Below, one piece after another: positions 2,180 through 20,156 of a DNA stretch of 46,081 nt; position 1 is the stretch's first letter; each line of letters starts with the position of its first letter. The notes under the pieces are model-generated. The model worked only from the letters and a program-made list of their open reading frames with translations. It was not told the DNA's origin and did not search any database. Origin of the DNA: a virus; the IMG/VR virus record IMGVR_UViG_3300009181_000124, positions 1 to 46,081 of that record; one strand, 5' to 3'. The translations under genes were made by a program, and so were the position numbers.

Positions 2180-2389
2180 CTATAAATATTGTTCTTCTTC
2201 AACTAATTGAGCTTCTTCAATTTTCTCCACAAAATAGTATATTCCGTTTTTCTTCAATACAGCATCAGCATAAATGTATTCCTTATACTCCTGTACCATG
2301 TCTTCTTTTATATATGTTTCTTTAATGGTGCGTTTGATGAAGTATAAACTGTCTTCCCAATTTACAACTTGTTTGACTATTGTGAACAT
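2180..2389 (-). CDS. Hypothetical protein, 69 residues
   Basis: Unrecognised acidic protein (MFTIVKQVVNWEDSLYF ... EEAQLVEEEQYL) with no clear motif, membrane segment or Cys cluster. Its ATG overlaps the stop codon of the sliding-clamp gene, so the two are translationally coupled. A class II motif overlaps its stop codon and serves the next small gene. The coupling to the clamp hints at a replication-linked or clamp-related role, but the protein itself does not show this. Confidence 0.65.
   Translation of the reverse strand: MFTIVKQVVNWEDSLYFIKRTIKETYIKEDMVQEYKEYIYADAVLKKNGIYYFVEKIEEAQLVEEEQYL
2181..2188 (-). promoter_or_regulatory. Class II (late-type) motif before 41-residue gene
   Basis: The sense sequence AATATTTATAGTAAAAT lies about 15 nt before the ATG at 2165 and overlaps the stop codon of the preceding gene. 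Confidence 0.4.
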
Positions 2390-3123
2390 TACATGTCCTT
2401 TTTAACAATGTAATATGTACTTTTTACATTGTTTGTTTTAAATTCTAGCTTCAACAGTCCTTCTAAGTTAACGTATATTTTAGCTGACTCATAGTCTTTG
2501 TTACAAGAAAGTATTTCTTTAAATAAGTCTGAGTTAAATGCTAGTTCAAAGATTTTACTAGTATTTTTACTAATGTTTAAATAGTAAGACACTTTATTTG
2601 CATATTCAATGTCTCCACCAAATGTAAGTTCTAATTGTGGATCACCATCTAAACTTTGACATGGATTGATAACTACTGTAGTACTTTCTGCTAATGCTGA
2701 TTTAGCTTTAATTAAAGCAACAACTACTTCAGATTCTAAGTCAACTTCAATGTCCCATTCTTCAGAACCATTGTATGCTCCTGTTTTTGAAACTGTTAAA
2801 ATGTCTGCTAATGAGTAGTTGACTGTGAATTGTTGATCAGCAATGATTAGTTTAGTAAAAATTTTGTGACTTTTAATAAAGGTCAACATTACTTCACCAG
2901 CCGTAATTCCAATTAGTTTAAGTAACTGTGAAGTGTTACTAATGCCAAATGATGAGTTTTCTAAATTAAAGTTATTGTGACTTACTTCACCAATCATTTC
3001 TCGTGATGGTGATGTGAATTTAATGTTTAAATTATTGTCTTTGACGTCCCACTTAACAGACTCAATTAAGCCGTTAAGATAGTATTTGTTTATAACATTT
3101 TGTAATTCTACTTTGTTTATCAC
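2389..3123 (-). CDS. DNA polymerase sliding clamp (T4 gp45-like)
   Basis: Probable processivity clamp for the family B polymerase; in T4-like phages it forms a trimeric ring and also activates late transcription. At 244 residues it is close to T4 gp45 (228). The sequence is divergent. The call rests on overall pattern: repeated beta-rich clamp-like stretches (KLIIADQQFTVNYSLADIL, AKIYVNLEGLLKLEFKTNN) and the final strand STYYIVKKDM, which resembles the end of gp45-type clamps. The rest of the T4-like replisome is present, and the polymerase C-terminal half ends in a clamp-binding-like FFTF. It has its own class I promoter at 3136-3167. A structure prediction would confirm the fold. Confidence 0.7.
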   Translation of the reverse strand: MINKVELQNVINKYYLNGLIESVKWDVKDNNLNIKFTSPSREMIGEVSHNNFNLENSSFGISNTSQLLKLIGITAGEVMLTFIKSHKIFTKLIIADQQFTVNYSLADILTVSKTGAYNGSEEWDIEVDLESEVVVALIKAKSALAESTTVVINPCQSLDGDPQLELTFGGDIEYANKVSYYLNISKNTSKIFELAFNSDLFKEILSCNKDYESAKIYVNLEGLLKLEFKTNNVKSTYYIVKKDM

Positions 3124-3129
3124 TTTTTT

Positions 3130-3354
3130 TTATTTTAAATATATAAATAAAAATCTTAAAAGCCTAACTAAATTGGTAAATTTATAATTATCTAAATAAG
3201 ATTGAAAATCAGAAGAATTTATATTAGTAGGATATTTTGTTGTTTTACCTAAAAATTCAGCGATATATCTTAAGTATAATTTAGATGTATTAGGTGAATA
3301 ATTTAAGTACTCTAACTTTTGTTTACAAATCTCGGAGTAATCCAATTTTTTCAT
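3130..3354 (-). pseudogene. Truncated tyrosine recombinase, N-terminal core-binding domain only
   Basis: The 74-residue frame resembles the N-terminal SAM-like (core-binding) domain of XerC/integron-type tyrosine recombinases: CKQKLEYLNYSPNTSKLYLR, YIAEFLGK, then INSSDFQSYLDNY. The YSPNT-x3-YL pattern and the following helix are typical. The catalytic domain with its Arg/His/Tyr residues is absent. The final 16 or so residues (FTNLVRLLRFLFIYLK) are encoded by the class I promoter of the sliding clamp, so the original gene was cut at about 3170. It lies directly beside the attC-like array, where an integron would carry its integrase gene. It may be a broken integron integrase or another Xer-like remnant. 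An N-terminal domain alone cannot recombine DNA. Confidence 0.65.
3136..3167 (-). promoter_or_regulatory. Class I promoter before sliding clamp
   Basis: The sense strand reads TTAGGCTT-N16-TATATTTAAAA, ending 13 nt before the clamp ATG. It overlaps the end of the truncated recombinase ORF, whose last residues are encoded by the promoter itself. Confidence 0.8.
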
Positions 3355-3389
3355 ATGTTAAAGCATTAATAGTTAATATTTTATAAAAG

Positions 3390-3415
3390 GTTAGATATAT
3401 AATATAGTTATATGC
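3390..3415 (-). other. attI-like region: two recombination cores
   Basis: On the plus strand GTTAGAT (3390-3396, an exact GTTRRRY core) is followed by GTTATATGC (3407-3415). The second core is the left boundary of the first cassette and is the exact reverse complement of the outer core of attC1 at 3644-3652. No long inverted repeat like the attC sites surrounds it, as expected of an attI rather than an attC. It lies between the truncated recombinase start (3354) and the first cassette gene. Confidence 0.5.
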
Positions 3416-3615
3416 TATTTTAAACAGAAGTACTTAACAAAATCTTCTTCGTTAAAAATTGAATATTGACCTGTCCCATCATTAGGTTCTACTAATTTGT
3501 TTTGCCAAATTGAACTTTCTGCATAATATTCGTATTCTTTGCCTTTTGTGAAAATCTCTTTTTCGTAGGCAGAACCTTTGTTTTTAAACATTGTTACTTT
3601 TGCTATTACTTTCAT
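3415..3615 (-). CDS. Cassette 1 gene: hypothetical protein, 66 residues
   Basis: Small unrecognised protein (MKVIAKVTMFKNKGSAYEKE ... EEDFVKYFCLK). The pattern of beta strands with KGKEYEYYAE and a C-terminal FNEEDFVKYF resembles small DUF-type cassette or phage proteins with an SH3-like fold, but I cannot name a family. The stop codon starts at the last base of the GTTATATGC core, so the gene fills the cassette completely. It has an A/T-rich leader typical of Bacteroidota starts. Function unknown. Confidence 0.75.
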   Translation of the reverse strand: MKVIAKVTMFKNKGSAYEKEIFTKGKEYEYYAESSIWQNKLVEPNDGTGQYSIFNEEDFVKYFCLK

Positions 3616-3643
3616 TTTATTATTGATTTGCGAAAGAAAAACA

Positions 3644-3778
3644 GCATATAACAGCGTGTATAAAAAATGGCGGGTTTAGTGCCATTAAGAAACATTTTGA
3701 TGATATGAACTGCATTGCTTTCAAGTTAATTTTGTGCTTTAATTCCGCCACTTCTTATACACTCAAAACGTTATACGC
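3644..3778. repeat. attC-like site 1 (135 bp)
   Basis: The plus strand runs from GCATATAAC (3644-3652) to GTTATACGC (3770-3778). The inner arms pair as GTGTATAA/TTATACAC and TGGCGG/CCGCCA, with an imperfect central region. The outer core is the exact reverse complement of GTTATATGC at 3407-3415. Confidence 0.85.
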
Positions 3779-3793
3779 AAATAAAAATTACTA

Positions 3794-3991
3794 TTAGCGT
3801 TCCTTCCCTGTCATATAGTTTATTTCAATATCCTTCTTCCCCGCAAGTGCGTTCTTTGCATATTCATAAGCCTGTCTTACTTGTCTATCATGGCACGTTA
3901 CACCTTTGCTGCTTTCATGGATATTTGAAGTTATCCGCAATGCTTCAATTATTGTTTCTAATTGAAATTTGTAAATTGTTATTTCTTCCAT
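3794..3991 (-). CDS. Cassette 2 gene: hypothetical helical protein, 65 residues
   Basis: Small, mostly helical protein (MEEITIYKFQLETIIEALRI ... VRQAYEYAKNALAGKKDIEI), unrecognised. GC-richer codons (CGC, GCG, CCC) set it apart from phage genes. It sits between the core at 3770-3778 and the outer core of attC2 at 4024-4032, whose sequences are exact reverse complements. No signal peptide or membrane segment. Function unknown. Confidence 0.75.
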   Translation of the reverse strand: MEEITIYKFQLETIIEALRITSNIHESSKGVTCHDRQVRQAYEYAKNALAGKKDIEINYMTGKER

Positions 3992-4023
3992 TCTATTTAG
4001 TTTATCGTTAGTAATTTTTATCA

Positions 4024-4091
4024 GCGTATAACAGCACCTTAGCGTCAGCTTCGTTCCTCAGCCGAACGCCAAGCTGCAAAACGTTATGTGC
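4024..4091. repeat. attC-like site 2 (68 bp)
   Basis: The plus strand runs from GCGTATAAC (4024-4032) to GTTATGTGC (4083-4091). The arms GCACCTTAGCGT and ACGCCAAGCTGC pair at 10 of 12 positions. The outer core is the exact reverse complement of the core that opens cassette 2 (GTTATACGC, 3770-3778). The 68-bp length is within the range known for integron attC sites. Confidence 0.88.
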
Positions 4092-4095
4092 AAGG

Positions 4096-4428
4096 CTACC
4101 TATACACACCATCGAACCTTTTTCTCATTGTTTCATCAAATAGTATTGTTCCAACCATCTTGATATATTTATCAGCAAGTTTCCCTATCCACTTCATATC
4201 TCTCCAACTCATTTTTTGCCCTTTCAATGGTTCTTTTCTTGCAACAAATTGTTTTTGTCTATCAGACCATTTAATGAGAAAAAGTTCTTTGTTAAACTCT
4301 ATTACCGAGCCTACAAAAATATCGTTTCCGTTTGCGTCTTTAATTCCAATATCCTCACCCGCCCTGCACATAACAGCACCTTGTTGCAATGCGGGGCTTT
4401 TCGGTTCATTCAAATTTTGTTCTTCCAT
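4096..4428 (-). CDS. Cassette 3 gene: YopX-like protein, 110 residues
   Basis: The central part resembles YopX-family phage proteins: IGIKDANGNDIFVGSVIEF matches their (T/I)GLKDxNGxxIYxGDIV block, followed by a beta-rich segment (LFLIKWSDRQKQFVARK) and a C-terminal stretch (YIKMVGTILFDETM) that recalls the family's xxVIGNIYENPxL end. Family members are small proteins of unknown function in phages and mobile elements. The first 18 or so codons lie inside the outer arm of attC3, so the attC hairpin is partly coding. A start at the internal Met (MCRAGED) is possible. It is one of seven cassette genes, all on the minus strand. Confidence 0.7.
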   Translation of the reverse strand: MEEQNLNEPKSPALQQGAVMCRAGEDIGIKDANGNDIFVGSVIEFNKELFLIKWSDRQKQFVARKEPLKGQKMSWRDMKWIGKLADKYIKMVGTILFDETMRKRFDGVYR

Positions 4429-4502
4429 TGTAATTTATTTTTAAGTTGATAATTTCGTTCTTCTAATCCCGCACTGACAACAAGCTGCGGAACGTTATAG
4501 GT
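4366..4502. repeat. attC-like site 3 (137 bp), overlapping a gene start
   Basis: The plus strand runs from GCACATAAC (4366-4374) to GTTATAGGT (4494-4502). The arms GCACCTTGTTG and CAACAAGCTGC pair, as do TGCGGG and CCCGCA. The outer core is the exact reverse complement of the opening core of cassette 3 (GTTATGTGC, 4083-4091). The left arm encodes the first residues of the cassette 3 protein. Confidence 0.85.
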
Positions 4503-4506
4503 AAGG

Positions 4507-4695
4507 CTAAGACAATACCCATTCTAATATTTTAATCTGATTTGAAAGTGTTGCAATATCTGAAAGCATATCTGTATTTTGTTCAGTCATTATACCGCCA
4601 TTTCTACTTAACAAATCTTGTCTTTGCTCGTGTATTTCAGATATTTCAACCTTAATACTTTCAATCATTCTTTCAATTTGTTCTTTACTCTGCAT
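4507..4695 (-). CDS. Cassette 4 gene: short coiled-coil protein, 62 residues
   Basis: Small protein with heptad-like pattern over most of its length (EQIERMIESIKVEISEIHEQ, then DIATLSNQIKILEWVL), consistent with a two-helix coiled coil. No recognised family, signal peptide or membrane segment. It lies between core GTTATAGGT (4494-4502) and the reverse-complementary outer core of attC4. Function unknown; a small oligomerising or antitoxin-like protein cannot be excluded, and nothing specific supports either. Confidence 0.72.
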   Translation of the reverse strand: MQSKEQIERMIESIKVEISEIHEQRQDLLSRNGGIMTEQNTDMLSDIATLSNQIKILEWVLS

Positions 4696-4719
4696 CTTTT
4701 TAAGTTTGTGAGAAGCCCT

Positions 4720-4855
4720 ACCTATAACAGCACATAGGCAATATGGCGGGTTCTCTGGTTAATATTAAGTTCAGTTTTTCAAATCAAGTTTAGTGGTTGC
4801 AGAAAGTTTTGTGTTCCAAATCCGCCACATCGCCTATCTGCAAAACGTTATGTTT
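4720..4855. repeat. attC-like site 4 (136 bp)
   Basis: The plus strand runs from ACCTATAAC (4720-4728) to GTTATGTTT (4847-4855). The arms GCACATAGGCAATATGGCGG and the reverse complement of CCGCCACATCGCCTATCTGC match at 17 of 20 positions. The outer core is the exact reverse complement of the opening core GTTATAGGT (4494-4502). The interior resembles that of attC1. Confidence 0.88.
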
Positions 4856-4862
4856 AATTAAA

Positions 4863-5039
4863 TTATTGTTTTTGAATTTGTTTAATCATTTCATTCATTT
4901 GTGTTTTATCATCTTCAAACTCAAACAGTCTTTCTATTTCTTGAATTTGTTCTTCTGTGGTTTTAAACTCTTTAGTTATCAAACTAAAATCTTTTTCCAC
5001 TATTTTTTCTTCGATTACTTTTAATCTAATTTTACTCAT
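4863..5039 (-). CDS. Cassette 5 gene: hypothetical helical protein, 58 residues
   Basis: The ATG at 5039 opens a 58-residue frame (MSKIRLKVIEEKIVEKDFSL ... NEMIKQIQKQ), just below common ORF cut-offs. It is highly charged and probably all-helical, with no recognised motif. Its stop lies 8 bp from the cassette core at 4847-4855, and its start lies 40 bp from the outer core of attC5, the same layout as its neighbours; this supports it as a real cassette gene. Function unknown. Confidence 0.65.
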   Translation of the reverse strand: MSKIRLKVIEEKIVEKDFSLITKEFKTTEEQIQEIERLFEFEDDKTQMNEMIKQIQKQ

Positions 5040-5078
5040 ATTTTTATTTTTTTAATTTGTAAAACAATAATTTAACTA

Positions 5079-5136
5079 AAACATAACAAAGTGTAAAAAA
5101 CATTAAAACGATTTTTTACACTTGACCGTTATACGC
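5079..5136. repeat. attC-like site 5 (58 bp)
   Basis: The plus strand runs from AAACATAAC (5079-5087) to GTTATACGC (5128-5136). The arms AAGTGTAAAAAA and TTTTTTACACTT are perfectly complementary over 12 bp. The outer core is the exact reverse complement of the opening core GTTATGTTT (4847-4855). Confidence 0.85.
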
Positions 5137-5208
5137 AAGCACTACATTCGTTCTCCGATTTAGCTTTTGTGGAAGTAAAAAAGAAAATAAAAATTTGCCA
5201 ACGCTCAA

Positions 5209-5481
5209 TTAAATTAATTTTGTTACCTCTGACTGACAATACCATTCTCCATTTACAAAATAAGTCCATTGGTCAAAATCCCATTCTGATTTTTCAATCT
5301 TTCCGTTTAATCTTTTGTCGCCACTCCTTACTGTTACATCAGTTCCATTGTCAAGTGGCTTTGGCTCTTCAACTTTTTCAAGTTCATCAATGTATTCTTC
5401 CAAGTCTGTTTCAAATTGTATATGGTCAAAGTTTCTTGTTCCTTGCCAGTATTTATCATTGCTTCTTTTTGGTCTGTTCAT
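5209..5481 (-). CDS. Cassette 6 gene: hypothetical protein, 90 residues
   Basis: Unrecognised acidic protein. The C-terminal half (GTDVTVRSGDKRLNGKIEKS, then YFVNGEWYCQSEVTKL) looks like a small beta barrel of the SH3/Tudor type seen in many short cassette and phage proteins. The N-terminus (MNRPKRSNDKYWQGTRNF) is basic. It lies between attC5 and the degenerate sixth site; 72 bp between attC5 and its stop codon hold nothing I can identify. Function unknown. Confidence 0.72.
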   Translation of the reverse strand: MNRPKRSNDKYWQGTRNFDHIQFETDLEEYIDELEKVEEPKPLDNGTDVTVRSGDKRLNGKIEKSEWDFDQWTYFVNGEWYCQSEVTKLI

Positions 5482-5499
5482 AATGATTTAATTTTAAAA

Positions 5500-5550
5500 T
5501 TGCCTCCCTAAAATTTTAAAGGCTTCGTTTAGCCCCGATACGTTATACGT
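5500..5550. repeat. Degenerate attC-like site 6 (inner core only)
   Basis: The plus strand ends in GATACGTTATACGT (core 5542-5550) after TTAGCCCC, like the inner ends of the other sites. A matching outer TATAAC core was not found. A short inverted repeat GCCT-N14-AGGC lies at about 5501-5524. Probably a decayed or rearranged site. Confidence 0.45.
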
Positions 5551-5938
5551 CATTTTGCTTTTCCCTACCGCCCTCAATACATTCAAGTTTGCCGTTAGTG
5601 AATTTGGCAAAAAACTCATACCAGTCACTTCCAATATTGGAATAGAAATTTACATAACCGTGATGCGGTATTACTTCAAGCCTTTCATTTACTCGCCTCA
5701 AACTGCCCATTAATCCAAGCAACCCTTCTCCATCAGGATGCGGTCTTTCTTCTTTTGGAACTTCCTCGTAATTCCATCTGCTTACTTTGAGTTCTCCTTC
5801 ATCGGTTATGTAAATTTCCGTTAGTTCGCAATCAAAGTCTTTTGTCTGCCAATTTGGATTTTTACCAATTAGTTTTTTTTCTTCATCTGTTACAGGCAAC
5901 TTGTCTGTATTGATGTATAAGTTGTCAAACATTCCCAT
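5543..5938 (-). CDS. Cassette 7 gene: hypothetical protein starting MGMFDNLY, 131 residues
   Basis: The protein begins MGMFDNLYINTDKLP, a start seen in small hypothetical proteins of Bacteroidota and other bacteria. It continues with WQTKDFDCELTEIYI and beta-rich segments ending in NGKLECIEGGREKQNDV. An in-frame GTG start at 5974 exists, but the ATG at 5938 fits the family-type start better. The stop codon (5543-5545) lies inside the core GTTATACGT of the degenerate site 6. Function unknown. Confidence 0.72.
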   Translation of the reverse strand: MGMFDNLYINTDKLPVTDEEKKLIGKNPNWQTKDFDCELTEIYITDEGELKVSRWNYEEVPKEERPHPDGEGLLGLMGSLRRVNERLEVIPHHGYVNFYSNIGSDWYEFFAKFTNGKLECIEGGREKQNDV

Positions 5939-6028
5939 TTTTATATTTTGTTTTTGATTAATATTTGTTGCCACTTCTATTTTTAAAATCTATTCTATTT
6001 CAACTACCCACTACACGGGCTTACGCAC

Positions 6029-6112
6029 TCTGCTAACATGGTATTACCGCAACCCCGAAAACTTTTCAGGTTGCCTATCGGGGCGGACGGCAATACCTGA
6101 AACGTTATCTCA
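6029..6112. repeat. attC-like site 7 (84 bp), distal end of array
   Basis: The plus strand runs from about TCTGCTAAC (6029-6037) to GTTATCTCA (6104-6112). The arms TGGTATTACCG/CGGCAATACC and CCCCGA/TCGGGG pair. Unlike sites 1-5, the outer core does not match the start of its cassette, so this cassette may have been rearranged. Confidence 0.65.
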
Positions 6113-6151
6113 GACTTTCCCCTGGCAGATTAATAAAGTTAAACATTTCTT

Positions 6152-6175
6152 TTATTCTAAAATTATTTTTCCCAT
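6152..6175 (-). pseudogene. Remnant gene start MGKIILE-stop at the edge of the cassette array
   Basis: Directly after class I promoter 6180-6211 the sense strand reads ATGGGAAAAATAATTTTAGAA then TAA. The intact gene at 19749 begins MGKIILEFDSEEE after the same promoter type. The 7-residue piece therefore looks like the 5' end of a related small gene, cut off where the cassette array begins. Confidence 0.55.
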
Positions 6176-6179
6176 ACTG

Positions 6180-6211
6180 TAAATATATGTCTATAAGTCT
6201 TGGAAGCCTAA
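6180..6211 (-). promoter_or_regulatory. Class I promoter facing the cassette array
   Basis: The sense strand reads TTAGGCTT-N16-TATATTTA. The TTAG includes the stop codon of the polymerase C-terminal gene. It would now drive the remnant ORF and then the cassette genes, giving them phage transcription. Confidence 0.8.
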
Positions 6212-7092
6212 TTAAATGTAAAAAATTTCTTAACGTTTGGATTGAGTGTTGGAAATTCCCATTTTAAGTCTTCATAAAGTGACTTTAACTTGTTAGCCAA
6301 CAATGAGTCAAATATTTCTTCAACATCAATGTACTGTTTAACAAATTCTTCAATTTCAGGAGGTGTTTTAGCATTTGGAACGCCTATTGTTTCTATTCCA
6401 AATGGATTTTGTTTTAAGTTGATAACAAACAGTTTGTCGCCTTCAATTATGCTCTCGTATTTTTTGTCTAGCTTTTTAAACTTTAACAAGTCATTATAAC
6501 GAACTGCTGCTTTTGTGTTGAATGGTGCTTTCAATTTAAATCTACTGAATATTTCTCCTGCAGTTGACCTTATTTGATAGTTAGATATTTGTTTTACTCC
6601 TGTAGGCTTTCCTAGTTCTTTTGGGTCTAGTGTTTTAAGTGACTTGTAAAAGTCAACAATGTTGTTGTCTATTTCTTCTTTTGGTTTGCCAAACAACACA
6701 TCTTTAATTAAGTTTTCACCAAACTTTTTAAACAGTTTGTTCATGTTGGACTTCATTAGTTCAAGTCCTTTCATGTCTAGTTCTTCAACAGGCACACCTT
6801 CCTTGTTGGTAACATACATGGCATATCTTCTTTTACCAGTAGTTAAAACCCCGGCACAAATTACTTCTTGTTTTAATTGGAAGTAATGTGTGTCGGGGCT
6901 GATGTTGAATAAACGCTTACTTAAACTGTTTAAGTTGTCGTTTGACTCATTTTGAATTTGGGTGGCTAATTTTAATATAATCTCATTTTTGTTGGCATCG
7001 TTGATTTCAATGCCTTGAGACTTCATGTATTTTATAATGTGACCTAAACAAATGTATAAACTATCAGTGTCACTTATAATAATATTTTGCAT
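6208..7092 (-). CDS. Family B DNA polymerase, C-terminal half (split gene)
   Basis: The 294-residue protein begins MQNIIISDTDSLYICLG: polymerase motif C (DTDS) stands at residues 8-11, followed by palm and thumb segments with the KRRY block (about 87-90), NPFG and VKQYIDVEEIFDSL. It ends VKKFFTFN, a clamp-binding-like peptide comparable to the C-terminus of T4 gp43. It lacks the exonuclease domain and motifs A and B, which are in the separate gene at 13044-11296. Together the two are 876 residues, near T4 gp43 (898). The halves presumably assemble into one enzyme. The gene follows a 69-residue ORF with 1 nt between them, behind its own class I promoter at 7325-7356. Confidence 0.93.
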   Translation of the reverse strand: MQNIIISDTDSLYICLGHIIKYMKSQGIEINDANKNEIILKLATQIQNESNDNLNSLSKRLFNISPDTHYFQLKQEVICAGVLTTGKRRYAMYVTNKEGVPVEELDMKGLELMKSNMNKLFKKFGENLIKDVLFGKPKEEIDNNIVDFYKSLKTLDPKELGKPTGVKQISNYQIRSTAGEIFSRFKLKAPFNTKAAVRYNDLLKFKKLDKKYESIIEGDKLFVINLKQNPFGIETIGVPNAKTPPEIEEFVKQYIDVEEIFDSLLANKLKSLYEDLKWEFPTLNPNVKKFFTFN

Positions 7093-7093
7093 A

Positions 7094-7303
7094 TTATGAA
7101 TTTGCCTTTACCTGCATGTATGGTTGAGGAATTGTTAATGTAACGTTGTATTTTTTGCTCCATTCTTCTGCAAAACTATTGAATTCTGCAAGAGCTGCTT
7201 GTTCACGTTTAACCATATCATCAATGACCGCTTGTTGTGCCTTTTTTAAGTCAATGGTTTCTTCTTCTGTTGCTGCTTTAATTGGTTTTTTAGGTTGTAA
7301 CAT
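7094..7303 (-). CDS. Hypothetical protein, 69 residues, cotranscribed with polymerase C half
   Basis: Lysine- and glutamate-rich helical protein (DLKKAQQAVIDDMVKREQAA, then FAEEWSKKYNVTLTIPQPYM), unrecognised. The YNVTLTIPQPYMQV ending recurs in small phage proteins. Its stop codon is 1 nt from the polymerase C-half ATG, so the two are translationally linked. Class I promoter 7325-7356 lies directly upstream. A role in polymerase assembly is possible from the linkage only. Confidence 0.7.
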   Translation of the reverse strand: MLQPKKPIKAATEEETIDLKKAQQAVIDDMVKREQAALAEFNSFAEEWSKKYNVTLTIPQPYMQVKANS

Positions 7304-7324
7304 ATTTTTTGTTTTATTTTATTT

Positions 7325-7356
7325 TAAATATAAAAAAGAATATTTAACTTTCCAAA
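7325..7356 (-). promoter_or_regulatory. Class I promoter for polymerase C half
   Basis: The sense strand reads TTTGGAAA-N16-TATATTTAAAA, with the same 16-nt gap as the other class I promoters. It gives the detached polymerase half its own start. Confidence 0.7.
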
Positions 7357-7393
7357 TTTACTTCATTAAAAGTAACATTTTTCTTGTAATTCT

Positions 7394-7645
7394 TTAACTA
7401 TTGGTGTAAGTTTCTTGAATGTAAACTAATGCCGCGTCAGTAGAGTATTGATCCATTAACAGTGGATCAAAAGTTGCAATAGTAACTTCGAATGTTGTGT
7501 TGTCAACTTGTTCAAATTTTCCTACTGGTGCATTTTCAATTTTTACAACAATCTGTTGGTTGAAAATGTATTTTGTTTTGTTTTCATTTAATTGTGGAAT
7601 ATTATTACTTAAGTAAGTTCCTGCTAATTGATAAGTTAATGCCAT
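7394..7645 (-). CDS. Hypothetical, probably structural, protein, 83 residues
   Basis: Beta-rich small protein (MALTYQLAGTYLSNNIPQLN, then ALVYIQETYTNS) with no named family. It directly follows the large tail-fibre gene and a weak class II-like AT motif, so I infer a virion or fibre-associated protein. It has no signal peptide or membrane segment. It is the last gene of the structural module that lies between the two DNA polymerase halves. Confidence 0.65.
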   Translation of the reverse strand: MALTYQLAGTYLSNNIPQLNENKTKYIFNQQIVVKIENAPVGKFEQVDNTTFEVTIATFDPLLMDQYSTDAALVYIQETYTNS

Positions 7646-7694
7646 GTTACAAAGTTATTATTTATTTTGTTATATATTATTTATTTTATTATAT

Positions 7695-10600
7695 TTAGCA
7701 TGATACCCATGCTGCTCCGTTGTAAAATACTCTAACTGTAACAGCCCCGCCACCAACTAAGGCGGCATTATATGTTGGCAAAGTTGCATCGGTTACATAA
7801 GCGGTATCACCTACTGACCCTGCGGGTAAAGTAGCAACTGTGTAACCCATTAATTTTATCGGAACCGCTGCCGTAACCCTTAATTCTCCAATAGTAAATC
7901 GCGTTGTTGCTGTTTGCAATGTCGTTCCACTTGCTAATGTAGTTCCTGTTTGAAAAATAATATTTGGAGGAGTGGCGTTTCCTGTGCTGCGTGTAGCAAA
8001 TGTAAGTGATGCCCCTGCGTTATTTGAACCTGAACCTCCACAAGCATTAAGAACAGTCGAATATGCTGCTGTGTGTGTTACTCCGTTAAAGTACCAATTT
8101 GAAATATAACCATTAGCACTATTTGAACCCAAAACACCCTGATTAGCTGCTGTTGCTGTTGCTAAAAAGCCTATACAAACGGTTGCATTAAATGTACTAT
8201 ATGCTCCACCACCTAATGATACAGCAAAATTTCCAGAAGCATATGTAACATTATATTGACAATTGCCAATAGCTGTCGAATTTACTCCTGCAACGTTTGT
8301 TCCAGAAGATAAATTTCCACCAATTGCCAATCCATAACCGCTGGCAGTGGCTTGTCCCATAGCTATTGAACCATAAGTTCCTATTGTAGCTGATGGCCCT
8401 ATTGAAAAACCATTTTCTGCTACACCAAGTCTTAAAAATTTAGCTCCACCTAAATTTAAACCATTTGTTGTTGCTGTTCCACCTGACGCTCCAATATTTA
8501 AAAGGTTATTTGTCTTATCCCAAGTTAAATCTGCATCCTCGCCATATACACCACTGTCATTAAATGGTATTCTTGTTGAAGTTCCGCTTGTTATGGTGGT
8601 TGTGCCTACTGTTATTCCTGATGAAGCCGTTGCCCAAGATAAAGTAGCCACTCCTGCTGCGGGTGCTGTACTCTGTAATACCTGCCCTGCCGTTGGTGCT
8701 GTTGTTGGTAAATCGTATGTTATAGAAGCGGACGGATTTGTTCCTCTGAATGTTTGGATGAAAGCATTGGTAGCGTTTCTTAACACTAAAGTTCCTGCCA
8801 CGCTACTTGCTACTCCTGATGTTACTGCGCCTGTTAAAACCAAACTTGTTCCTGTTGCTACTCCTACATATGATGATGTTGAAGCAAAAGAACTACTTAC
8901 TGCGTTTAAGACATATGATGCACTTGTTGCGTTTTGAACATATGATGCGCTTACTGCGTTTAAGACATATGATGCACTTACTGCATTAGATGCTGTACCA
9001 ATTAATGTTCCTGTAAATGAACCACTAAATGAACCGGTATTACTTAAAAATTGATCTACTCTATTTGCTGTTACAATAAGTGATGGTATGCCTGGTACTA
9101 CTCCGAACCCTGCTTCAGCATGTAATCTTACATTTGCATCCGGTGAATACCACATTAATTGATAATAATCATTTGCTGCTGAGTTAACAAAGAAATTCCA
9201 TGCTGCAACATAGTGAGCTCCATTTCCTACAAGTTGTATAGAAGTAGCTGAGTCACTAATATCAGTTCCATTTTTTCTTAGCCAAATCCATATCTCATCT
9301 GTTCCACTATCTGTTTTATCTACTTGAGCAGAAAATTGAATATCATATACTCCAGCATTTTCTGTTTTAATATATGTATTAAATGGATTTGTTGAACCTG
9401 AAATAGATACTCCGTTTGTAATATCTGTTATATTAAGAGACATTGAACGAGCGGTACCTGCTATATTAGTTTGTATTTGAGTAGAATAAAAGCTACCATA
9501 TGAACCAGTTGCCGTATTAAATCCTCCTCCACCTGATGTTGAAGAAATAGTAACTTGACCTAAACCATTTGTTGGTGATAATGTTACATTTGGTCCTGCT
9601 AATAATTGAGTTACACCACCGTTTAAAGCAAATGAGCTACTTACAGCTTGTAATACATATGATGCTGTTAAAGCGTATGAAGATGTACCTGCAAATTGGG
9701 AAGCATTAGATCCAGTGTATAAATTGAATGATGCTGTTGTTACTAATGACCCTGTGTCTACTGATCCTCCTCCATTTAGTGAATATGATGCTGTTAAAGC
9801 GTATGATGCACTTGTTGATGTGGAAGCATAACTCGCTGTTCCAAATAAAGATCCAGTAAATGATGGGGCTGTTACTCCTCCAGGCATTGAAAGTGTACCA
9901 TCATTATTAAAATTCCAGGTGTGTGAAGCTGAGGTTTGAATATAAGCACCAAAGTCATCTACCCAAATAAGTGATTGTGTGTTGCTTGATGCTAATTCTA
10001 CATATTCTCCGGGTGCAGCTATTATATCAATGCCTCCTCCATAAAATAAATTATTTACAAGACTACCTCCTTTTAAATTTATAGAACCAGTCACTTCTAC
10101 ATTATTAATAAAAGCAACTTTATCTGGATATACCAACAATCCATTTTCAGCATTGTATCCATTTACTTGTAAGCCTATACTTTGTGTTGAGTCGTTGTGA
10201 AAAACAAATCTACCATCATCCCAACCAAAGTAACTCATTATAGAGTTTGTTGTTGAGAATGTGTCATTGTAAAAACGAGATGTCCAAGGGTATGCATTAT
10301 TAGCATGAATTTCTTGAATTGCTAGGTTTGGACTACCAACCGTTGGAGTTAACATTATGTAACCATTATCTCCAATTAAAGATTGATTGCCTAACACACC
10401 TACTGAACCTGTAAATTGAGCTGGTCCTATGTTTATAAAAGTGTTAGAACCACTTACAATAAATGAACCTGTTATTTCAATACTACTTGTAGTATTCCAA
10501 ATGTTTCCACCTACATAAGTAAAAGGAGCAGAAGATCCGGATGGGCCTTGAGAGCCAGATGGGCCTTGAGAGCCAGATGGACCAGGAGGACCTTGAGAGC

Positions 10601-10808
10601 CAGATGGGCCTTGAGAGCCAGATGGACCAGGAGGACCTTGAGAGCCTGATGGACCTTGAGAGCCTGATGGACCTTGAGAGCCAGATGGACCTTGAGAGCC
10701 AGATGGACCAGGAGAACCTTGAGGACCTAATGAATTAACTGTCACTACACTAGTAGATGGATTTAATATAGTAACAGTATTAGCGTCTGAGATAATATTT
10801 ACTGACAT
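7695..10808 (-). CDS. Tail fibre protein with collagen-like and YadA-head-like repeats, 1037 residues
   Basis: Large probable host-recognition fibre. Residues about 28-92 are Gly-X-Y collagen-like repeats (GPSGSQGPSGSQGPPGPSG). A beta-rich shaft follows with many short repeats of the ASYALTASY / SASYVLNAV kind (about 330-400 and 610-680). The C-terminal third contains trimeric-autotransporter-head-like segments (GSIAMGQATASGYGLAIGG, NSTAIGN) and ends in a compact VGDTAYVTDATLPTYN ... AAWVSC domain. Such proteins are normally homotrimers. The C-terminal third is visibly GC-richer than the rest, which suggests domain exchange. The gene starts 4 nt after the preceding virion gene ends and lies between the two DNA polymerase genes. 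Confidence 0.88.
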   Translation of the reverse strand: MSVNIISDANTVTILNPSTSVVTVNSLGPQGSPGPSGSQGPSGSQGPSGSQGPSGSQGPPGPSGSQGPSGSQGPPGPSGSQGPSGSQGPSGSSAPFTYVGGNIWNTTSSIEITGSFIVSGSNTFINIGPAQFTGSVGVLGNQSLIGDNGYIMLTPTVGSPNLAIQEIHANNAYPWTSRFYNDTFSTTNSIMSYFGWDDGRFVFHNDSTQSIGLQVNGYNAENGLLVYPDKVAFINNVEVTGSINLKGGSLVNNLFYGGGIDIIAAPGEYVELASSNTQSLIWVDDFGAYIQTSASHTWNFNNDGTLSMPGGVTAPSFTGSLFGTASYASTSTSASYALTASYSLNGGGSVDTGSLVTTASFNLYTGSNASQFAGTSSYALTASYVLQAVSSSFALNGGVTQLLAGPNVTLSPTNGLGQVTISSTSGGGGFNTATGSYGSFYSTQIQTNIAGTARSMSLNITDITNGVSISGSTNPFNTYIKTENAGVYDIQFSAQVDKTDSGTDEIWIWLRKNGTDISDSATSIQLVGNGAHYVAAWNFFVNSAANDYYQLMWYSPDANVRLHAEAGFGVVPGIPSLIVTANRVDQFLSNTGSFSGSFTGTLIGTASNAVSASYVLNAVSASYVQNATSASYVLNAVSSSFASTSSYVGVATGTSLVLTGAVTSGVASSVAGTLVLRNATNAFIQTFRGTNPSASITYDLPTTAPTAGQVLQSTAPAAGVATLSWATASSGITVGTTTITSGTSTRIPFNDSGVYGEDADLTWDKTNNLLNIGASGGTATTNGLNLGGAKFLRLGVAENGFSIGPSATIGTYGSIAMGQATASGYGLAIGGNLSSGTNVAGVNSTAIGNCQYNVTYASGNFAVSLGGGAYSTFNATVCIGFLATATAANQGVLGSNSANGYISNWYFNGVTHTAAYSTVLNACGGSGSNNAGASLTFATRSTGNATPPNIIFQTGTTLASGTTLQTATTRFTIGELRVTAAVPIKLMGYTVATLPAGSVGDTAYVTDATLPTYNAALVGGGAVTVRVFYNGAAWVSC
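10530..10727 (-). repeat. Collagen-like Gly-X-Y coding repeats
   Basis: A short unit encoding GSQGPSGSQGP is repeated almost identically about ten times within the fibre gene. Such DNA can expand or contract by slippage. Confidence 0.85.
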
Positions 10809-10812
10809 TGTA

Positions 10813-11211
10813 TTATGTTGTTACTTGATTACTTAATCTAATTTGGCCTTCTAATAATCTTATAGTGTAAGGACAATCACTACCTGAGTACAATTCTAAA
10901 TCATAGTAAGCTGTAGGAAATGTAAGTAAAGATGAAGTACAAGAGGATATGTATATTCCAATGGAACCACTTGTTGGAGGTGTAATTCCATTACTTCCAC
11001 TAAAATTTAAACCTGTTCCATCTGAATTTAAAGAACTAGACAAGGTAATGTACACAGTGCGAGTAACATCATATGCATAATTAGACGCAATTTGCATTCG
11101 ACCTGAGTAGTTAGTTAAGTCTACTGGGTTGTTTAGTGAGTCTAGATATTGTATTTCAAAATTAGTTGTTGCTCCTTGTTCTATAGTAAAAGAATATCTA
11201 CCTGCTGCCAT
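10813..11211 (-). CDS. Virion structural protein, 132 residues
   Basis: The start MAAGRYSFTIEQGATTNFEI with IQYLDSLNNPVDLTNYSGRM, and the end IRLLEGQIRLSNQVT, form a pattern I know from virion proteins of T4-like marine phages (IEQGATT-x-FEIxYxD ... LEGxxxLSxEVT). It is probably a small beta-sandwich fibre- or head-associated protein; the precise location is unknown. A class II motif (11223-11230) precedes it, and the tail fibre gene follows 4 nt downstream, so the two form a late unit. Confidence 0.75.
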   Translation of the reverse strand: MAAGRYSFTIEQGATTNFEIQYLDSLNNPVDLTNYSGRMQIASNYAYDVTRTVYITLSSSLNSDGTGLNFSGSNGITPPTSGSIGIYISSCTSSLLTFPTAYYDLELYSGSDCPYTIRLLEGQIRLSNQVTT

Positions 11212-11295: not shown

Positions 11296-13044
11296 TTATA
11301 AATTGAACTTAGCTATCAATTCTTCTTTACTTAACTGTAAATACTCATTGTTTATTTTATTGTTTACAAAGTCAATAGTAGACATAGTTAAACGTTGTCC
11401 TGAGTTTGTAATGGCTGAACTACAAATCAAGTGACCATCAGTGTATCTCCATCCATTTTTAGCAAAAGTACCATACATTGCGTTTTGTAAAATTTTAAAA
11501 CTATGTTGAAATAAGTCGTACAATTTATAGTTAGTCCAATCTTCTTCCTTACCTGCTTTCTTTTTTAGTGCTCTATAATGTTCTCTCTTTTTAAACCATC
11601 CTTCTAATATTTTAGCTACAATACTTTGTTCATCTGTTCTAAACATAGCACCTGATGCTGCAATAGTAAAGTTGTTTTTTTCAATTAAGTCAATTAAGTC
11701 TTTTAATTTTATTTGGGCTGACTTAAGAGTGTAATTTTCTTTGTTTAACTTTTCAATTTCTACTATTTCATTTGGATCTCTTTCTTTAAGCTTTTCTAAT
11801 GATTGGTTTTGCTCATAAGTAACATCGTGATGTACTTTAATTCTACCTACTAATGTTTCAATGGCTAAGTTAAGAGACTTAATAATACTAGGATACAGTG
11901 ACGTAAAGTCTAAGTCTATGACGTCAAAGTACAAGCCAGATATTGGTTCAAGTAAATATCCGCCAGCATATGATATATTATCCGCTTTTAAAGACGAATT
12001 ATGAGTAGTTGGCTTATTTGGTGAAACAATGCCTTCTCGTTTTAAATACTTTAAAATTGCGCCTTCATTCATAACTGTGTTCCAATATATGCTTTCATAA
12101 GGAATGTTACAGATGTGGGATATCATGATGGTCAGTTCAATGAACTTTAACTTGTCTTCAAGTTTTTCTAAAATGTCAACGTCACGTAAGTTATAGTCAA
12201 TAAAAGTATTTAAGTCGTTTTTAAACAATGTGTTTAAATTTCCCTCATATTCTACCTTACCTAAGTCAACGTATTTTAAGCCAATGTCTCCTAGTTTATA
12301 TGATGGTTCTTCCTTCATAATGTATTTTTTATGAAGTAACATATAGTCTAAGTGATTGACTCCTCCTATTCTAACTTGTAAAGTACCTGCAAATTCTCTA
12401 AAGTTGATTTTTCCAATAGGAGACATTCTCAATATTTCGTCGTCGCCTAAAGTGTGTTTAATTCTGAAGTATAAGTAAGGCATGTCAAAGTAAGCACTGT
12501 TCCATCCCACTACTATTGTTGGGTCTAATTCCTCCCACTTGTCTAAGAATTTTTTGATGAGTTCCTTTTCAGAAACACATGGTACAATGTGTTTACCATT
12601 TTCATTTGATTCTTGAATTTCCTTATTTTTGTCTACAACAAAACACATTTTAGTCTTTGTAGTCATGTCTATTAAAGCAATTGAAGTTATAGGCATAGGA
12701 GCAGCCTTGATGTATTCAGGTGTTAAGGCACCTCCCATTTCAATTTCAATGTCTAAGTATACAATGTTGTGAAATGAAGGTACCACGTCATCATACTTAT
12801 AGTACAATTCTCGTAAAATGAGAAGTTCCTTGTTGATGTCTTTTTCTAAGAGATTAGTGTCGTCTTTACTGAATTTTTTAGTTGGAATTGCAAATCCTCC
12901 AGTTAAGATAGGTTGAGCACCTTCTTGCCATTCATCAACTCGTTTCCAATAAGTGGGTTGATATTGAAATTTAGACCATCCATTTTTATCATCTCGAAGA
13001 TAATATGTGTAGTCCTCAAATGAATAGTGAAGTGCTTGATACAT
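11296..13044 (-). CDS. Family B DNA polymerase, N-terminal half: exonuclease plus motifs A and B
   Basis: The 582-residue protein holds the 3'-5' exonuclease motifs (Exo I VYLDIEIE near 96, Exo II VVGWNSAYFD near 180, Exo III YNLRDVDIL near 285), polymerase motif A (DLDFTSLYPSI near 378) and motif B (KILQNAMYGTF near 520). It stops after the helix SGQRLTMSTIDFVNN with a tail ending AKFNL. Motif C is absent and is found at the start of the gene at 7092. T4 gp43 carries all of these in one chain. The gene follows dUTPase by 16 nt behind class I promoter 13524-13555. Split gene 43 forms are known in some Aeromonas T4-like phages. Confidence 0.95.
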   Translation of the reverse strand: MYQALHYSFEDYTYYLRDDKNGWSKFQYQPTYWKRVDEWQEGAQPILTGGFAIPTKKFSKDDTNLLEKDINKELLILRELYYKYDDVVPSFHNIVYLDIEIEMGGALTPEYIKAAPMPITSIALIDMTTKTKMCFVVDKNKEIQESNENGKHIVPCVSEKELIKKFLDKWEELDPTIVVGWNSAYFDMPYLYFRIKHTLGDDEILRMSPIGKINFREFAGTLQVRIGGVNHLDYMLLHKKYIMKEEPSYKLGDIGLKYVDLGKVEYEGNLNTLFKNDLNTFIDYNLRDVDILEKLEDKLKFIELTIMISHICNIPYESIYWNTVMNEGAILKYLKREGIVSPNKPTTHNSSLKADNISYAGGYLLEPISGLYFDVIDLDFTSLYPSIIKSLNLAIETLVGRIKVHHDVTYEQNQSLEKLKERDPNEIVEIEKLNKENYTLKSAQIKLKDLIDLIEKNNFTIAASGAMFRTDEQSIVAKILEGWFKKREHYRALKKKAGKEEDWTNYKLYDLFQHSFKILQNAMYGTFAKNGWRYTDGHLICSSAITNSGQRLTMSTIDFVNNKINNEYLQLSKEELIAKFNL

Positions 13045-19504: not shown

Positions 19505-19749
19505 AATTCTAAATTTAAATCGTTGTCCTTTAATATTTCTCTAAGTATCTCTCTGTACTTTTCTGCAACATCCTGTTCAAATTCATCTACTTCTGATTCC
19601 CTATGAATTACACTTTGGGCATATTTAGTAGTATTTCTTAACTTTTGGTCTAATTCCCACATTGCATGTTTCCATTTATAACCGTCTAATGCGACTCTTG
19701 CCTCATATCGTTCTTCTTCAGAGTCAAACTCTAATATTATTTTTCCCAT
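19501..19749 (-). CDS. Conserved phage hypothetical protein MGKIILEFDSEEE, 82 residues
   Basis: Pattern (I/V)xFEFDSEEERxxAxxALxGxKW ... WELDQKLRNTTKY is a recurring small phage protein type; here FDSEEERYEARVALDGYKWK and WELDQKLRNTTKYAQ are visible. It is charged and helical, with no known role. The same first seven residues with the same promoter occur as a truncated remnant at 6152-6175 beside the cassette array, implying a second copy once existed there. Class I promoter 19754-19785 lies directly upstream. Confidence 0.75.
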   Translation of the reverse strand: MGKIILEFDSEEERYEARVALDGYKWKHAMWELDQKLRNTTKYAQSVIHRESEVDEFEQDVAEKYREILREILKDNDLNLEL

Positions 19750-19753
19750 GATT

Positions 19754-19785
19754 TAAATATATAATAAAATATTTTGTAAGCCTAA
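19754..19785 (-). promoter_or_regulatory. Class I promoter
   Basis: The sense strand reads TTAGGCTT-N16-TATATTTAAAT, 5 nt before the ATG at 19749, overlapping the stop of the preceding gene. Confidence 0.8.
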
Positions 19786-20156
19786 TTATTTAACCACTCA
19801 TCCTCTATTAATTTTGAAATAAACAATCTTAATTGTTGAATTTCATCATTTAAAAGTGTGTCAGATACCTTATTTAATGCTTCTTTATTACCATTAAGCA
19901 ATTGACTCATCCATGTATTATTGTCCCAACATTCTTCATTTTGTGTTTGCTTATTTACATATTTAATGTAAAGACTATTTTTTATAAAAATTTCATTGTT
20001 GTAATCTGAAAATATTCTGATTGCTTCAAATGAACATTTGTCTAATTCAAGAAGACAGTTTTGAGAGTAAATTAGATCTTGAAGTTCTACTTTAGAATTT
20101 TCTTTTTCTTTAACATACCAAACACCATCTATTTGTATTCTGTCTTTTACTGTCAT
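19782..20156 (-). CDS. Hypothetical protein, 124 residues
   Basis: Unrecognised protein (MTVKDRIQIDGVWYVKEKEN, then LLELDKCSFEAIRIFSDYNN and NNTWMSQLLNGNKEALNKVS). The start with VKDRIQIDGVWYV forms a short beta hairpin also seen in other small phage proteins. It lies 15 nt downstream of queD in the same direction and ends inside class I promoter 19754-19785. No membrane segments. Function unknown. Confidence 0.7.
   Translation of the reverse strand: MTVKDRIQIDGVWYVKEKENSKVELQDLIYSQNCLLELDKCSFEAIRIFSDYNNEIFIKNSLYIKYVNKQTQNEECWDNNTWMSQLLNGNKEALNKVSDTLLNDEIQQLRLFISKLIEDEWLNN

Follow-up and report, generated by a model that had tools for sequence, protein, structure and literature searches.

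The locus between the clamp and polymerase genes

The window, by which we mean the entire stretch of DNA analyzed here, is 46,081 bases long and represents a linear viral contig. It encodes a split family-B DNA polymerase, a helicase, a ribonucleotide reductase, and a protein matching a tail tape-measure protein, a gene content that marks it as a T4-like phage, which probably infects Bacteroidota. The region of interest is flanked on the left by a minus-strand gene for a 244-aa protein (2389–3123), with homologues in 29 viral relatives. The protein had no match in Pfam or PHROG; its place in T4-like phages suggests that it is the sliding clamp, and we refer to the gene as clamp. The right neighbor, polC, encodes the C-terminal part of the split polymerase (6208–7092, minus strand; phrog_1918, E = 3e-45). 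The two polymerase halves of the window (11296–13044 and 6208–7092) are kept apart by four genes (7094–11211), one of which encodes a product of 1037 aa containing collagen-like repeats; the halves of most relatives are separated by ~15 bp.

Upstream of clamp and on the same strand lies a repeat, TTAGGCTT...TATATTTA (3126–3170; repeat families D4 and D7), which looks like a phage promoter. Copies of the form TTAGGCTT/TAGGCTT...TATATTTA occur at gene ends at 3112–3170, 6156–6214, and 19730–19788, and several relatives carry a matching sequence upstream of clamp. Each end of the array described below has one copy of the TTAGGCTT-type repeat.

Fused onto this element is a minus-strand ORF for 74 aa (3130–3354). 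The first-pass annotation had described it as the core-binding domain of a tyrosine recombinase without its catalytic part, and this was borne out by Pfam: residues 10–58 matched PF13495 (Phage_int_SAM_4; E = 3.2e-6, 27.9 bits at a gathering cutoff of 27 bits), and a catalytic domain was not found in the ORF. Residues 1–60 ("...DFQSYLDNYKFT") align with full-length recombinases and are near-invariant across the family. Since homology stops at residue 60 and the 14-residue tail (61–74) is encoded by phage intergenic DNA containing the TTAGGCTT repeat, the ORF is the 5' remnant of an integrase gene. Its full-length counterpart would comprise about 266–270 aa, and the cut falls inside the core-binding domain. 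AlphaFold predicted four helices for the 74-mer (pLDDT 71). A tblastn search of viral contigs with the 74-mer returned 21 viral loci (best E = 2e-20), 18 of which encode complete recombinase ORFs of 269–302 aa; of the other three, L018 and L019, which are nearly identical, contain a frameshift, and L003 is cut by the end of its contig. A stand-alone 74-residue homologue, as could be expected in array-free phages if this were an intact protein, was not found among the 21 loci. The window contained no further integrase fragments at E < 0.1, and a search of 50,697 named phage records gave no direct relative of the 74-mer. The integrase gene seems to have been truncated by a deletion that took its 3' part up to the promoter-like element of clamp; the cut does not look like a trace of the array's arrival in the phage, as had been proposed alternatively. 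The frameshift in L018/L019 (the same contigs as L112/L113) lies at about residue 137 and represents another decaying copy.

The integrase remnant is adjoined on its 5' side by an attI-like site, GGTTAGATATATAATATAGTTATATG (3388–3413, plus strand), with a putative crossover at G3407^T3408. Two motifs that had been singled out as attI-like cores, GTTAGAT and GTTATATGC, were read directly at 3390–3396 and 3407–3415, and both proved to be parts of a conserved block found upstream of intact integrases. On the integrase strand, the surroundings read TATAACTATATTATATAT and match 53 distinct sequences located 5' of intact integrases at 62 loci. TAAC is conserved in 53 of these 53 sequences and the TATAT block in 52–53. 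The distance of the block, YATAACTATNATATAT, to the first matched integrase codon is 29–77 bp (median 67; 62 loci, 53 unique). Eight near-identical array contigs were removed before the attI-block and the cassette-HSP counts were made.

From 3408 to 6104, seven one-gene cassettes form an array between clamp and polC. Each unit consists of one minus-strand ORF and an imperfect inverted repeat, which is bounded by ...AAC and CGTTAT. Cassette 1 (3408–3770) contains an ORF at 3415–3615 (66 aa) and attC1 at 3647–3776, and cassette 2 (3771–4083) an ORF at 3794–3991 (65 aa) and attC2 at 4027–4089. The ORF of cassette 3 (4084–4494) at 4096–4428 encodes a YopX-like protein of 110 aa, which matches PF09643 slightly below the cutoff (E = 2.7e-4) and whose start codon lies within its own attC (attC3, 4369–4500). 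Cassette 4 (4495–4847) comprises an ORF at 4507–4695 (62 aa) and attC4 at 4723–4853, and cassette 5 (4848–5128) an ORF at 4863–5039 (58 aa) and attC5 at 5082–5134, a 53-bp type of which close variants recur among viral contigs. Cassette 6 (5129–5542), read from the sequence, carries an ORF at 5209–5481 (90 aa) and a degenerate attC at about 5490–5548, in which R' (GTTATAC) is kept, the R'' side is unrecognizable, and which was missed by the scanner. Cassette 7 (5543–6104) has an ORF at 5543–5974 (143 aa, GTG start) with a 32% match in the phages L090–L092, and attC7 at 6032–6110. The R' core TTATAC (5543–5548) provides the stop codon of this ORF (TAA on the gene strand), which therefore ends at the recombination junction. 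All seven cassette genes read toward the integrase.

A custom scanner, written for this analysis to call attC-like sites, recovered six of the seven repeats (all but the sixth in order), all of one polarity. Six polarity-consistent sites in the 2.5-kb array compare to four sites of mixed polarity in the other ~43 kb of the window. The combination of six sites called in this way, one degenerate site, and a truncated integrase bears on the label CALIN, a cluster of two or more attC sites that has no intact integrase. No match to IntI1 above chance was found in the window.

An integrase family adjoining attI-like sites and attC arrays

A profile of the full-length proteins identified 67 viral loci. 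Searched against 84,980 genomes, the same profile found three relatives, one of which is 42% identical and belongs to a Bacteroidales MAG, in whose locus no attC-like sites were detected. The platform in intact relatives is ordered as an integrase of ~270 aa, attI upstream, and then the attC array. Sequence of 2 kb or more 5' of the integrase is available for 48 viral loci, and all but one of them (47/48) have two or more polarity-consistent attC-like sites there. Around the 67 viral integrases, 309 attC-like sites were counted in 411 kb of 5' sequence versus 58 in 547 kb of 3' sequence, and 289 of the 309 share one direction (289 to 16), numbers that still contain some near-identical contigs.

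Intact members show the domain layout PF13495 + PF00589, as in Xer/XerA, and their alignment contains conserved R, K, HxxR, H, and Y columns, which we take to be the active-site residues of tyrosine recombinases; the window protein represents the core-binding part only. Models for XerA, XerC, and XerD are matched below their cutoffs. The integron integrase model TIGR02249 scores about 150–160 bits in two stretches, compared to a cutoff of 265 bits, and the alignment to IntI4 (2A3V) extends up to residue 180 and resumes at 257, skipping the IntI-specific region (about 181–256). As judged from sequence, the family is not IntI and has no I2 insertion; the window integrase is cut before the I2 region. 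A Foldseek search with a model of the L002 integrase, which is of moderate quality (pLDDT 79, pTM 0.58), returned IntI4 (2A3V, E = 1.6e-15) as the first match, followed by XerA. In a quick tree with long branches, in which the deep branching order is unsure, IntI formed one clade (21 rows, SH-aLRT 100), Bacteroidota XerC/D another (10 rows, SH-aLRT 99), and the phage integrases together with their chromosomal relatives a third group (support 83).

These results bear on several proposals of the first-pass annotation. The ORF had been viewed as a remnant of the integrase that built the array, which agrees with a family that adjoins attI and attC arrays in 47/48 viral loci and occupies the same slot in L043 (see below). 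The structural matches are to tyrosine recombinases and not to an unrelated fold, as would be expected if the assignment were wrong, and full-length homologues beside attC arrays, for which a search had been proposed, exist in viral contigs and on Bacteroidota chromosomes. Regarding the position that intI takes in an integron, the arrangement holds, with an integrase remnant beside attI and the array, but the identity does not: the family is distinct from IntI, and the IntI-specific insertion that was sought in the homologues is absent.

The chromosomal relatives (L280–L299, notably L287, L290, and L297) encode integrases of 42–52% identity beside similar attC arrays. They are co-directional with arrays of the type without extrahelical bases (EHBs); the sites lie 3' of the integrase, and 36 of 43 have the opposite polarity relative to the gene. 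All ten scored cassettes (10/10) show the normal order of gene and then attC. On the 3' side and the plus strand, 19 sites have no bulge, four an EHB, and two a bulge on the other arm, the other bulge categories including likely false calls. It is possible that L280–L299 represent an unrecognized class of chromosomal integron. Among named phages, a 42% relative is encoded by Polaribacter phage Freya, where its annotation is integrase; in P12002L (L052), which is among the phages of Qi et al. (2023; PMC9892861), the called sites are of mixed polarity and no array of the window type was recognized. On a Chryseobacterium plasmid (L122), a single well-formed attC-like site (10184–10313) is located after a RidA-family gene, with a 44% identical integrase nearby.

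L043, a relative of the window phage, and the near-identical L042 carry an array and an open integrase frame (7165–7941 in L043) between polC and clamp, which is the slot occupied in the window. Nine of the 12 attC-like sites called in L043 are in the expected polarity. Its integrase is a divergent, long-branch member (41–45% identity), and the conserved attI block was not recognizable in this contig. The polC/clamp junction (2389–7092; L023–L051) is an insertion hotspot: among 26 relatives, 11 have a gap of ≤50 bp, two an array, and 13 a stretch of 147–1288 bp without attC-like sites that usually contains one or more ORFs; three of the 29 clamp loci (L036, L048, and L051) lie outside this comparison. 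Some relatives carry homologues of ORF 926–1630, which we guess to be homing-endonuclease-like, or other small ORFs at this junction.

Carrier markers were searched in 50 of the 67 integrase loci, namely those on contigs of at least 24 kb. A terminase scored above the cutoff in 13/50, so that many carrier contigs are incomplete or unproven as phages. A homologue of the window-type polymerase was clear in one (L077, E = 1e-59) and weak in two of the 50, and ribosomal protein L14, detected in 14/14 control genomes, was found in none of them (0/50). The strongest case for phage carriers is the window's own clade.

The array might instead be a host cassette cluster of the IntI type that entered the phage through illegitimate recombination, the recombinase fragment being unrelated to it. 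Canonical IntI does occur in 84 of 296 sampled Bacteroidota genomes, and PMC9892861 describes phage CALINs whose attC sites are compatible with IntI1. However, the fragment, attI, and the array recur in the same order and spacing across viral relatives, the whole unit occupies the same slot in L043, and sites of the window type lack the EHBs of IntI arrays, which makes such an origin quite improbable.

Site architecture, cassette boundaries, and gene orientation

The architecture of the attC-like sites was analyzed in a deduplicated set of 248 unique phage sites, including those of the window and L043. They possess R''/R' cores and inverted arms, and the bottom strand is predicted to form the more stable fold in 231 of them. 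A C precedes GTT in 225/248, and the commonest spacers on the R'' and the R' side, respectively, are 1/4, 1/5, and 2/5 nt. Wobble pairs are biased to one folding strand, with 547 on the bottom compared to 125 on the top strand. At nt 15 after the AAC of R'', an A.C on the top strand, corresponding to T.G on the folding strand, was observed in 156 of the 193 phage stems reaching this position (100/136 after reduction to distinct arms) and in 19/21 chromosomal sites, while stem positions 16–20 are about 95% Watson-Crick. Only two of the six called window sites show A15.C.

The polarity of ordinary attC sites is marked by EHBs, according to PMC2727003. As the ungapped scanner recovers few attC sites of canonical IntI arrays, a bulge-tolerant scanner was written for this comparison. 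Arm alignment revealed extrahelical bases in 6/186 phage sites versus 37/39 sites around canonical IntI genes, the latter count being confined to sites with spacer or bulge asymmetry and the former made without such a filter. The phage sites thus differ from ordinary attC sites in lacking EHBs on the R''-L'' arm.

We also scanned the sites for a Bacteroidota-type promoter, presumed here to follow the consensus TAnnTTTG with −33/−7 elements. The full −33/−7 pattern was present in 19/247 sites versus 4.6 in shuffles. A promoter in every attC was rejected, since TAnnTTTG alone occurred in 43 sites versus 34 in shuffles and the full pattern applies to a minority at most.

Cassette boundaries were assessed by comparing arrays that have one cassette in common and differ around it. 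By eye, shared blocks span from the TAAC of one site to the TAAC of the next (L067/L007 and L118/L119) or stop at TAAC (L043/L090, L076/L087, and L067/L071), and identity on the integrase side begins at the TATAAC of attI (L056/L057, L067/L071, and L079/L104). Cassette-HSPs started within 10 bp of the R' crossover in 18/30 cases compared to 71/880 random positions, and at R'' in 2/30 compared to 41/880. HSP ends were mixed (4/33 at R' and 9/33 at R'') and say little about boundaries, since successive attC sites frequently share a type. At attI, different first cassettes are joined to integrases that are identical over 359 bp at their starts (100%, L067 and L071) or 97.8% identical (L056 and L057). 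Breakpoints at R' and at attI are the pattern expected from cassette turnover at attI, as far as sequence comparison can indicate. Two shared genes (L085/L090 and L043/L090) are preceded by different attC sites, which indicates that an attC and its gene are sometimes inherited separately.

In 161 of 165 unique phage cassettes the gene reads toward the integrase, and not away from attI as in ordinary integrons. With the crossover placed at R', a phage cassette begins with its own attC and ends with the gene, and 37 of 161 longest cassette ORFs begin within their own attC, as in cassette 3 of the window. Compared to the chromosomal order of gene and then attC, the phage cassettes are therefore inverted. 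An outward Pc at attI would be of little use in this orientation.

Another explanation holds that the integrase serves only to integrate a phage or satellite at attI, the hairpins being bystanders or transcription signals. It would fit the annotation of the 42% relative in Freya as an integrase and the promoter matches in some attC sites (19/247). Boundaries at the R' core with an integrase-side breakpoint at attI, a polarity of 289 to 16 among sites that cluster only 5' of the integrase, and the strand bias of the wobbles are nevertheless at odds with it, and we give this explanation little credence. A function of the 74-residue protein as a small DNA binder, e.g. as a regulator or, during co-infection, as a dominant-negative partner to a complete integrase, is more improbable still: the frame is open, its start lies at a normal distance from attI, and the model keeps four helices, but no short homologue is conserved as such, the tail is encoded by intergenic DNA, and the fold's own fourth helix is lost, with chance sequence in its place.

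A proposed mechanism and its relation to known systems

The evidence makes it very probable that the window contains a decayed phage-borne integron without I2 and EHBs, composed of an attI, seven cassettes, and a 60-codon integrase remnant, and belonging to a family that works by the mechanism outlined here. In intact members, the Xer-like integrase of ~270 aa would join double-stranded attI to the folded bottom-strand hairpin of attC at G^TT, and newly added cassettes would take the position closest to the integrase. The asymmetric central spacer and the T.G wobbles, above all the one at nt 15, probably tell the integrase which strand and which core to use. Each gene would follow its own attC; because the cassette genes face attI, they would be expressed not from a promoter at attI but through phage transcription arriving from upstream or through signals inside the cassettes. 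In the window phage, the integrase gene appears to have lost three quarters of its length, at the 3' end, to a deletion, so that the array is probably frozen and may be mobilized only by an integrase supplied in trans.

The system resembles IntI integrons in the order of an integrase gene with attI and a one-gene cassette array on its 5' side, as well as in the R''/R' cores, the putative crossover at G^TT, the C that usually precedes GTT, and a bottom strand that is predicted to form the fold; for IntI, PMC2727003 describes both bottom-strand recombination and the position of cleavage at R'. It differs from them in the absence of I2 and EHBs, the asymmetric 1–2/4–5-nt spacer, the A15.C, the inverted genes, and its location on phages. 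According to PMC9892861, Qi et al. (2023) identified 21 phages with IntI-type components or CALINs and tested six attC sites with IntI1. Some of those phages are virulent, and the attC clusters they carry are comparable to the window in that an intact integrase is likewise missing, whereas the integrases on the 67 viral contigs identified here form a distinct lineage that has an attI of its own.

Xer recombinases act on double-stranded dif sites. Xer/XerA (PDB 4A8E and 5HXY) provide the best whole-length sequence matches and share PF13495 + PF00589; in contrast to Xer, the phage family is accompanied by hairpin arrays and an attI-like site, and Bacteroidota XerC/D form the separate clade mentioned above. 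A further parallel is CTX-phi, which is not known to have an attI or cassettes. As described in PMC4792948, this phage has no integrase of its own and is captured by the host XerCD, i.e. a recombinase without I2, through a folded site without EHBs. The same article holds that single-strand recombination by IntI arose from the gain of I2, the domain that recognizes extrahelical bases in attC, and it discusses the co-evolution of I2 and EHBs as a chicken-and-egg problem, together with a possible viral origin of integrons. PMC7790495 describes I2 as a requirement for capturing cassettes. Both the definitions in print and the tools depend on the IntI domain: IntegronFinder needs it (PMC9668308) and a 2008 survey likewise selected for it (PMC2426708), so that a family without I2 would be missed or left as CALINs. 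Within the published literature, preprints being outside its scope, our search found no paper on an I2-less integrase with attC arrays of its own. On present sequence evidence, the intact phage members are a previously overlooked variant of the integron.

More tentatively, phages and Bacteroidota chromosomes could share a second kind of integron, with hairpin cassettes, neither I2 nor EHBs, and a polarity set by the nt-15 wobble and the spacer, which would have arisen independently or before I2 and have its natural home in phages; we consider this conceivable but somewhat doubtful. If true, a natural system of attI, attC hairpins, and cassettes without I2 and EHBs would make the chicken-and-egg question testable and would bear on how integrons arose, as a survivor of a pre-I2 stage or as an independent invention. 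A phage home of I2-less integrons would also fit the proposed viral origin, and phages would possess a dedicated gene-capture device. The cargo of the arrays includes matches to DNA methylases, RNA ligase, and tRNA synthetase domains.

As a separate observation, at least 120 viral contig stretches (L161–L240 and others) share one exact 33-nt attC stem-loop (ATGATAAACAACATTAAAACGATTGTTTATCAT), which is part of different arrays.
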